In this document: one piece after another, positions 23,517 through 31,879 of the stretch | Layout of the letters: each line of letters starts with the position of its first letter | Position numbering within the stretch: position 1 is the first letter of the stretch | Assembly: GCA_028282805.1 (NCBI GenBank) | Contig: JANQHD010000038.1 | Coordinates: forward strand, 1 to 64,000 | Length of the DNA: 64,000 bases | Origin: Phycisphaeraceae bacterium | GTDB taxonomy: Bacteria > Planctomycetota > Phycisphaerae > Phycisphaerales > Zrk34 | Direction of reading: 5' to 3' | Made by a program: the position numbers and the translations under genes | Notes under the pieces: generated by a model | The model's database searches: none | Seen by the model: the letters and a program-made list of their open reading frames with translations, nothing else | What the model was told of the DNA's origin: nothing

Positions 23517-25083
<1,567 letters not shown>

Positions 25084-25085
<2 letters not shown>

Positions 25086-29171: not shown

Positions 29172-29437
29172 CGCGGGGCCTCCCTGTGCGTGGGGCTGTT
29201 ATGAATGGTGATAGGACGCGTCTGGCACCGAATCGGCGTCAAATCGATTGCGGCACTTTTTCGATCCCCAACACCCGCTGTGACCGGGCATGGGGTGCGA
29301 TAATATGGGGAATTTTGCGTCGCGTTTGTGTCATGGCTGCCAATTCAGGTCATTTCTCGTTGCCGTTATCGCCATATGGAGTATACTTCCCCAATCACCC
29401 GGCGTGATTTGCCCCAAGTCCCTGAAGTAGAGACCCC

Positions 29438-30979
29438 ATGACGACCGCCTCCAAAACACCGGTCCTCGATCGGAAGACGCTGATGGCCCTCGTGGATGCG
29501 AGCAAGGCGATCAATAGCGAGCTGTCGAGCGAAGACGCGTTCCAACGCATCGCCGAGTGGGCGGCCAACGTGCTGGAAGCCGAGGGGGCCAGCGTGTTGC
29601 TGTTCGACGCCGACCGCAAGCAGCTGGTCTTCCAGGCGGCGGTCGGCCCGGGCGAAGAAACGCTCAAAGGCGTGCGATTCGACGCGGAGCTGGGCATTGC
29701 GGGCCAGGCGGTCAAGACCGGCCGGGCGATGCGCGTCAACGACGTGCGACAGAACCGCCACTTCTTCCCGGGCATCGACGCCAAGACCCACATGCGCACC
29801 AAGGCCCTGATCGCCGCGCCGCTGATCCACCTCGACGAGACGCTGGGCGTGGTCGAGGTCATCAACCCCAAGGGCCGCGATGAGTTCGGCAACCGCGACC
29901 TGGAGTTGCTGCGGGTGTTCGCGAACCTCGCCGCCGTGGCCGCGACGCACGCCCAGGCCTACGACCAGGTCGCGCGGCACAACCTCGCCATGCGTGAGGC
30001 CGAGCCGAGCTACGAGATCGTCGGCCAATCCCCGGCGATCAACCGCGTCGTCGAGCTCTGCCGGAAGGTCGCGCTGTCGAGTTCGACCGTCTTGCTCTAC
30101 GGCGAAACGGGCACCGGCAAAGAGCTTGCCGCGCGGGCGATCCACCGCTTCTCCGACCGCCGCGACAACCCGTTTATCGCCATCAACTGCGCCGCGCTGC
30201 CCGAGTCGTTGCTCGAGAGCGAGCTGTTCGGCCACGAGAAAGGCGCCTTCACCGGCGCGGCGGGCCAGAAGCTCGGCCGCTTCGAGCTGGCGCACGGCGG
30301 CAGCCTCTTCCTCGACGAGATCGGCGAGCTCAGCCAGGCCATCCAGGTCAAGCTGCTCCGCGTGCTCCAGGAGCGCGAGTTCGTGCGCGTCGGCGGCACG
30401 CAGACCATCACCTGCGATGTCCGCATCATCACCGCCACCAACCGCAACCTCAAGGAGGAGATGGAAGCGGGCCGGTTCCGCGAAGACCTGTACTACCGGC
30501 TGAACGTCTTCCCCATCACGCTGCCGCCGCTGCGCGAGCGCGTGGAAGACCTGCCCCTGCTGATCCAGCACTTCTCGCAGGAGGTCGCGCCGTCGTTGGG
30601 CGTCGAGGCCCCGGCGGTGACCGACGAGGCGCTGACGCACCTGATGCGGTACGAGTGGCCCGGCAACATCCGCGAGTTGCGCAACATCGTCGAGCGCTGC
30701 ACGCTGCTGGCCGGCAACGGCGCGATCGACACCGAGCACCTGCCGATTGAGATCGCCACGGGCGACGCGGCGGGCGACGCGGCCGGTTCGCCCGACACCC
30801 CGGCGCCCGGGGCGGCGAGCGGTTCGCGCCTTGCCGACCACGAGAAGGCGCTGATCCTCAATGCGCTGAACGAGACGAACTGGAACCAGTCGGCCGCGGC
30901 CCGCAATCTGGGCATCACCCGCGATCACCTCCGCTACCGCATCAAGAAGTACAACCTCCGCCGCAACAGCGGTGATTAA
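29438..30979 (+). CDS. GAF-domain sigma-54-dependent transcriptional activator
   Basis: 513 aa. N-terminal GAF sensor domain (about 20-170). AAA+ domain with Walker A GETGTGKE near 225, the sigma-54 contact loop GAFTGA near 270 and Walker [13 protein letters not shown] near 288. C-terminal Fis-type helix-turn-helix ([22 protein letters not shown]). Architecture is as in NifA/FhlA-type regulators without a receiver domain, so it responds to a ligand bound by GAF. The only sigma-54-type promoter I find in the window is 125 bases downstream of its stop, at 31104-31119. That makes it the leading candidate activator of that site. Confidence 0.93.
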
Positions 30980-31103
30980 GCCCCATTTCCCCGGCCGTCA
31001 TCTGGGTGTTATGCCCCGGATTATCCGTTCTGGATATCCTATTTCCTCACATTATCGGCGTTTTTGAGCGCCGACGGGCGTTGTGTGTGTTTTCCCACAG
31101 AAT

Positions 31104-31119
31104 TGGCACGGCTTATGCG
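31104..31119 (+). promoter_or_regulatory. Sigma-54-type (-24/-12) promoter
   Basis: TGGCACGGCTTATGCG keeps the invariant GG and GC with exactly ten bases between them and a full TGGCACG -24 element. The -12 element is TATGC rather than TTGC. No protein-coding gene begins within 350 bases downstream. A strong terminator at 31342 defines a short transcript instead. Confidence 0.65.
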
Positions 31120-31130
31120 TTTGACGGATA

Positions 31131-31377
31131 AGTGGTGGTTCAGATGCCGCTCGAGAGACCCGGAAGGCAACCGGGCGTGCTGGTGTAGAGGGGGGAACTG
31201 AGAGAGCCACGCGCCACCCTGCTTGGGACGCGGGGCGGAGCGTGGGTTTTGAAAGATGAGCGGGGCGACGGGGCCACTCGCCTCTCCGCATTCCTTCCTG
31301 GCGGCCGTTGTGATCAGGCCGTTGGGTCGGGGACTTCGGGCAGCTTGCGTTGAGCTTACTCAGCGCAAGCTTTTTTC
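31131..31377 (+). ncRNA. Candidate sigma-54-dependent small RNA of about 245 nt
   Basis: The segment lies between the -24/-12 promoter and an intrinsic terminator and has no supported reading frame. Several self-complementary stretches are visible. CCCGG (31159) pairs with CCGGG (31171) around AAGGCAA. CCACGC pairs with GCGTGG near 31208-31246, and GGCGA pairs with TCGCC further on. It does not match the RNase P, SRP, 6S or tmRNA consensus elements I know. The 5' end is inferred from the promoter. An internal motif recurs at 39521-39538. Confidence 0.45.
31342..31376 (+). terminator. Strong intrinsic terminator
   Basis: AGCTTGCGTTGAG (31342-31354) pairs with 31359-31371 (13 bp, one G-T pair), loop CTTA. 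It is followed by a run of T at 31371-31376. Confidence 0.9.
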
Positions 31378-31380
31378 TTG

Positions 31381-31432
31381 CCCCCGCCCCCGGAACCCGC
31401 CCCCGGAACCCGGAACCCGGAACCCGATACCC
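31381..31432. repeat. Heptamer array (GGAACCC family)
   Basis: GGAACCC units at 31392, 31405, 31412 and 31419, with GATACCC at 31426, preceded by C-rich degenerate units. Same sequence family as the right arm of the array at 17725-17786. It starts right after the small-RNA terminator. Confidence 0.8.
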
Positions 31433-31480
31433 CAACGCCGGCGCGGCGTTACAATGCCTCGTCCGAACCGCGTCACCAAC

Positions 31481-31568
31481 GGTGGGGTGGCGGAGCGGTT
31501 GAACGCACCGGTCTTGAAAACCGGCGTGGCCCCAGCGGTCACCGTGGGTTCGAATCCCACCCCCACCG
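31481..31568 (+). tRNA. tRNA-Ser (anticodon UGA)
   Basis: 88 nt class II tRNA. Acceptor GGTGGGG pairs with CCCCACC, discriminator G. The anticodon arm ACCGGTCTTGAAAACCGG gives the loop with TGA. A long variable arm (CGTGGCCCCAGCGGTCACCG) and T-arm GTGGG, TTCGAAT, CCCAC follow. CCA is not encoded. A terminator hairpin follows at 31571. Confidence 0.96.
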
Positions 31569-31610: not shown

Positions 31611-31630
31611 CTGTTGAGTCGGGATGAGAA

Positions 31631-31758
31631 CCCACCCGTCGCGCAGCGACGGCGCGTGGGTTCGACGCCGAGCGGAGCGAGGCGCCGCGAGGCGTTAGCC
31701 CAGCGAATCCCACCCCCACCCGTCGCGCAGCGACGGCGCGTGGGTTCGACGCCGAGCG
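31631..31758. repeat. Two 44-bp direct repeats containing tRNA-Ser 3'-end sequence
   Basis: The same 44 bases occur at 31631-31674 and 31715-31758: CCCACCCGTCGC, a CGTCGC-GCA-GCGACG hairpin, then GCGTGGGTTCGACGCCGAGCG. GTGGGTTCGA and, after a 38-bp insert, GAATCCCACCCCCACC (31705-31720) match the T-arm and acceptor end of the adjacent tRNA-Ser split at the T-loop. The stretch to 31879 has no gene. Confidence 0.8.
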
Positions 31759-31879
31759 AAACGCACCCCATACGCCCAGAACACGGCTCCGGCCACCCTG
31801 ATTGCAGGTGTGGCGGCGGGACGGTCGATCTATCCGATATGTGACCGTTCATGCTTGCCCTGTGGAGCCCCTATTCGCA

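Follow-up and report, generated by a model that had tools for sequence, protein, structure and literature searches.

A probable regulatory RNA gene beside a GAF-domain sigma-54 activator gene in Phycisphaeraceae

The 64,000-nt stretch of Phycisphaeraceae DNA analyzed in this study (hereafter the window) carries a gene for a sigma-54 activator, and the segment downstream of this gene raises the question of whether it encodes a non-coding RNA and what such an RNA might do. A first-pass annotation had proposed a sigma-54 promoter driving a terminator-ended non-coding transcript at this locus. Judged by sequence comparison, the segment is very probably a real, unnamed regulatory RNA gene, and its arrangement is kept in all genera of the same family that possess the activator and in one genus of another family. 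Our main reading, to which we assign a probability of roughly 0.78, is that this stand-alone small-RNA gene is the direct output of the neighboring GAF-domain sigma-54 activator and that the RNA acts in trans without Hfq. The features of the locus are listed in Table 1.

Table 1. Features of the activator-RNA locus, in window coordinates
Feature	Position	Strand	Basis
GAF - sigma-54 AAA+ - Fis-type HTH activator (bacterial enhancer-binding protein)	29438..30979	+	Pfam; orthologues family-wide and widely in the class
Palindromic upstream activating sequence TGGGTGTTATGCCCCG, inferred activator site	31003..31018	.	101 bp before the -24 element; 9/9 loci
Sigma-54 -24/-12 promoter TGGCACGGCTTATGC	31104..31118	+	Kept in 9/9 close loci; absent in 38 distant orthologues
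Predicted non-coding RNA, 247 nt	31130..31376	+	Start inferred as +1 from the -12 element
Block identical in sister species, GCAACCGGGCGTGCTGGTGTAG	31167..31188	+	G001 alignment; 3' end is motif A
Motif A, GGTGTAG	31182-31188	+	GGTGTRG in 6/8 RNAs
Motif B, GGGGCGGAG, most conserved element of the RNA	31232..31240	+	GGGGCGGA in 8/8 RNAs
Second block identical in sister species, GGGTCGGGGACTTCGGGC, directly before the terminator	31324..31341	+	G001 alignment
Intrinsic terminator, 13-bp stem and T6	31342..31376	+	Stem 31342-31371, T-run 31371-31376

The activator possesses GAF, sigma-54 interaction (AAA+), and Fis-type HTH domains in the Pfam search, and its reading frame ends with a TAA stop codon. 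Orthologues with 68-84% identity to the window's protein were identified in six further genomes of the same family (f1), which gives seven with the window's own genome (G000), and additional orthologues occur in further families of the same order and more widely in the class. G000 and its sister species G001 belong to one genus, and the seven f1 genomes represent six genera; the seven genera with the arrangement described here are these six and the genus of G162, a member of family f6. A peptide scan of contigs with AAA+ queries returned unrelated activators. Half-sites resembling the activator palindrome (TGGGGAATTTTGC and GATTTGCCCCA) are located just upstream of the activator gene in the window (29300-29437) and also in G005, which suggests that the activator may control its own gene. 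An IMP dehydrogenase (guaB)-like gene lies approximately 4 kb upstream of the activator in the window (23598-25085) and directly precedes the activator in G004 and G008; this proximity is perhaps the ancestral gene order.

The promoter proposed in the first-pass annotation, a -24/-12 element with a 10-base spacing behind the activator gene, was found as described: TGGCACGGCTTATGC starts 124 nt past the activator stop codon, the distance between its GG and GC is 10 bases, and the predicted +1 is 31130. A search of the window with the promoter consensus allowing at most two mismatches yielded 54 sites, compared with approximately 80 expected, and looser matches were as frequent as in shuffled sequence. 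Because the consensus match of the promoter alone does not exceed chance in the window, the claim rests on conservation. Each of the seven f1 genomes, like G162, has a near-consensus -24/-12 promoter 115-164 nt past the stop codon. Under a simple scoring scheme, the loci with the promoter scored 15.0-16.0, whereas the 38 other orthologues from the order and the class scored no higher than 13.3. The nine close loci in this comparison comprise those of the seven f1 genomes, G162 (f6), and G035 (f3).

All nine promoter loci also carry a palindrome with the consensus TGGGK-N6-CCCCA, which starts either 89-91 or 100-104 bp before the TGGCA of the promoter. These two distance classes differ by one helical turn, which fits an activator that has to face the polymerase. 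For G162, the script selected a distal site at 137, and the site nearest the promoter, CGGGGCATTTGCCCCA at 104, was recognized by reading the sequence. The point that the first-pass annotation had named for examination was whether relatives possessing this regulator keep the promoter and the terminator; every family-level orthologue has both elements, as does G162, together with the phased palindrome. G035 possesses the palindrome, the promoter, and a terminator, and its segment contains a short signal-peptide-like reading frame instead, with no motif B. No palindrome-promoter locus was found in G002 and G003, the f1 members that have no activator orthologue. In G005, the activator-type palindrome occurs approximately 20 times (4 in the control; for example, L203, L205, L207, L208, L210, L211, and L213); most copies border a dispersed GTGCGC-rich repeat and have no sigma-54 promoter nearby, and they may represent a decoy array or the site of another regulator.

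At the other end of the segment, the predicted 13-bp terminator with its T-run was confirmed. A terminator scan of the window found 5 terminators against 3.4 expected, which is near chance overall, and the 13-bp stem is exceptional among them. Terminators also end the other RNAs of the set, and in G001 the pair at the loop end of the stem has changed in a compensatory manner, from G-C to U-A. The accompanying statement that no reading frame lies between promoter and terminator required correction in part: mechanical open reading frames exist on both strands (plus strand, from 31256 through the terminator and a tRNA gene; minus strand, 31052-31435), but neither is conserved as a frame, and both are broken by stops in the nearest relative. 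A small protein as the product was likewise rejected, with the longest ATG frames varying between species and none conserved. The downstream neighbors differ between genomes; the RNA thus does not serve any downstream gene as a conserved leader.

The RNAs beside the activator range from 195 to 501 nt in length, and those in unlinked copies range from 148 to 398 nt. A convincing alignment was obtained for the sister species G001 only, which shares two identical blocks (22 and 18 nt) with the window's RNA; with more distant RNAs included, the alignments yielded no consensus structure. In the window's species, the RNA body without its terminator folded no better than shuffled sequences (z -0.7). 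Two short motifs are shared across the eight activator-linked RNAs of the seven f1 genomes and G162. GGGGCGGA is common to all eight, and in dinucleotide shuffles no 8-mer occurred in more than four; GGUGURG lies 5' of it and is present in six of the eight, compared with a shuffle mean of 0.42 and none of 500 shuffles reaching six. These shuffle tests ignore relatedness, which is relevant for the G000-G001 pair, the other RNAs being too diverged to align. A G-quadruplex RNA was considered and discarded, since the pattern matched just 2 of 11 RNAs (with G035 set aside), no more than in shuffles. A tandem-like stretch of GGAACCCG lies at 31383-31430 of the window and recurs at many places in the genome.

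The RNA unit is also found away from the activator. G006 and G008 each contain a second, unlinked non-coding unit with its own palindrome, promoter, and terminator between unrelated genes. An apparent second copy in the window's genome, at G000:C47:4280, proved to be a false positive inside an open reading frame; an order-wide scan for the promoter together with motif B returned mostly chance-like matches inside genes; and no RNA of this type was detected in G156 and G099 in the scans made.

In G081, the activator has no adjacent RNA. This genome contains eight palindrome-promoter sites at the fixed spacing, compared with none in a reversed-pattern control, and a wider search added three. All but one of these 11 promoters drive proteins; most of the proteins are short and have RTX repeats or a LEPR-XLL-like signature at the N-terminus, and one is a DUF1559 pilin. 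The remaining site drives a 148-nt, G-rich non-coding RNA that contains GGGCGGAG and a terminator and is unlinked to the activator. These targets suggest that the activator, at least in G081, regulates secreted or surface proteins and that the RNA is one member of the regulon. Together with the second units in G006 and G008, the G081 copy indicates that the RNA unit is independent of position. In a tree of 30 activators, the seven f1 proteins clustered with good support and G162 was sister to G081. Because the RNA is adjacent to the activator in G162 and unlinked in G081, it would date back at least to the divergence of f1 from these two f6 genomes, or it was exchanged together with its promoter. 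By eye, the small LEPR-XLL-like proteins of four G081 loci (L226, L234, L237, and L240) contain pieces resembling the DUF1559 pilin (NNLKQ-HNHHDV, LLPYIEQQNIYR, and DGLSNTLMMGE), as if assembled from pilin fragments.

On the basis of these findings, the RNA is most likely the trans-acting output of a surface-protein regulator. In the mechanism that we propose, the GAF domain would sense a signal, upon which the activator would bind the TGGG-N8-CCCC palindrome and, through a DNA loop, open the sigma-54 RNA polymerase at the promoter. The predicted transcript of approximately 247 nt would then end at the intrinsic terminator and, needing no Hfq, act in trans to complement the activator post-transcriptionally; the wider regulon of this activator in a relative appears to consist of secreted and surface proteins. 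An mRNA or a protein would probably be contacted through GGUGURG and GGGGCGGA. Hfq was not found in any of the 11 genomes searched, and CsrA is encoded in the window's genome.

Two sub-mechanisms may be envisaged for such an RNA, namely mRNA pairing through short motifs or titration of an RNA-binding protein. Antisense action in the manner of Qrr or GlmY, with motif B or a pyrimidine stretch pairing with the translation-initiation regions of several mRNAs, is possible but short of probable. A single invariant 8-mer in an otherwise fast-evolving RNA is the expected appearance of a multi-target seed, and UUCCUUCC occurs in G000, G001, G162, and the second RNA of G006; however, folding places motif B mostly within stems, where it often provides the 3' arm of a local hairpin, and a coarse test by whole-duplex folding revealed no pairing with the activator mRNA or the G081 regulon leaders beyond that of shuffles. 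It is rather unlikely that the RNA is a protein-titrating sponge similar to CrcZ or CsrB, which would sequester a translational regulator such as CsrA through repeated GGA-type or GGGGCGGA motifs. The presence of CsrA would fit, as would the two copies of motif B in the long RNAs of G004 and G008, the GGA-rich RNA of G004, and the variable length and extra copies typical of sponges. Against this, GGA shows no enrichment compared with dinucleotide shuffles, in which A-N-GGA is more frequent than in the RNAs (12 versus 20.7 in shuffles), counts that leave a CsrA sponge of the usual type unsupported; moreover, predicted folds mostly place motif B in paired regions and not in loops, and Hfq, the partner of CrcZ, was not found in the 11 genomes.

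A different view is that the segment is a decayed mRNA: a small surface-protein gene would originally have stood behind the promoter, as behind the related promoters of G081 and perhaps of G035, and the RNA left today would have no function. The protein-coding majority of the G081 promoters (10/11), the reading frame at the same position in G035, and the rapid divergence of the RNA bodies are in line with this view. Nevertheless, we consider decay improbable: several genera have retained the promoter, the terminator, and both motifs (A and B) but no reading frame, the non-coding second copies have palindromes of their own, and G081 has a non-coding RNA of the same type beside the protein genes. 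That the promoter and terminator are chance matches at a locus with no transcription is very improbable; single-window scans are indeed near the chance level, but the elements are conserved in 9/9 close loci and absent from 38 distant ones, and the palindromes are phased.

The opinion that the RNA falls outside the known families was borne out by Rfam, which gave no match at the gathering threshold, just sub-threshold chance matches at E values up to 10, and no covariance-model match to CrcZ, Qrr, or GlmY/GlmZ. The locus has the sequence features expected of a sigma-54 small RNA beside its enhancer-binding protein, namely a promoter with its palindrome, rpoN in the genome, and a non-coding, terminated segment. 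The first-pass annotation had compared this logic of a regulator with an adjacent sigma-54-dependent RNA to Qrr and GlmY; the logic is supported, but a closer analogue exists. The sigma-54-dependent RNA gene crcZ of Pseudomonas and Azotobacter is its own transcription unit directly downstream of cbrB in conserved synteny, CrcZ has extra copies elsewhere (CrcY and CrcX), and CbrB also has protein-coding targets (PMC8871633). In circuit logic, and by analogy, CbrB-CrcZ is the nearest known case, sharing with our locus the RNA unit downstream of the activator, the synteny, the extra copies, and the protein-coding targets. The two differ in that CbrB answers a sensor kinase whereas the present activator has a GAF domain; in addition, Hfq/Crc is the titration target of CrcZ, and the search for Hfq here was negative.

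The Qrr RNAs, controlled by LuxO in Vibrio, are similarly sigma-54-dependent small RNAs, sometimes in several copies, under one enhancer-binding protein, but their length and motifs are unlike those of the present RNA; Qrr RNAs require Hfq. GlmY/GlmZ, which are under GlrR in Enterobacteria, are terminated small RNAs with sigma-54-type control, and their genes are not known to lie next to the activator gene. The CsrB/RsmZ-type sponges resemble the present set in variable length, repeated short purine motifs, and the presence of CsrA, and differ in the GGA and A-N-GGA content noted above. They are controlled by GacA, not by sigma-54. A survey of sigma-54 regulons across phyla, planctomycetes included, contains no small RNAs in its main text (PMC12316311), and no small RNA of this kind was described for such bacteria in the open-access literature searched.

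We tentatively suggest, with confidence approaching but not reaching even odds, that these RNAs form a new, probably planctomycete family of Hfq-independent, sigma-54-controlled RNAs, the RNA arm of a LEPR-XLL/pilin regulator, with the invariant GGGGCGGA recognized by a protein or a set of mRNAs. The LEPR-XLL and DUF1559 proteins of relatives are in keeping with a planctomycete source. If transcribed, the RNA and its regulator would make a defined pair, for which promoter, activator site, terminator, and conserved core are mapped, in bacteria in which no Hfq was found, and the CbrB-CrcZ logic would exist far from Pseudomonas. Through the G081 regulon, the RNA would also be linked to pilins and to secreted LEPR-XLL proteins, the control of which is little known.

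The surroundings of the RNA gene show two further features. Directly after it, at 31481-31568, lies a tRNA gene, probably for Ser (anticodon read by eye as TGA), an order also present in G001 and not in the other relatives. Downstream of the tRNA, the direct repeat CCCACCCGTCGCGCAGCGACGGCGCGTGGGTTCGACGCCGAGCG occupies 31630-31780, and a similar array is located at the same place in G001.
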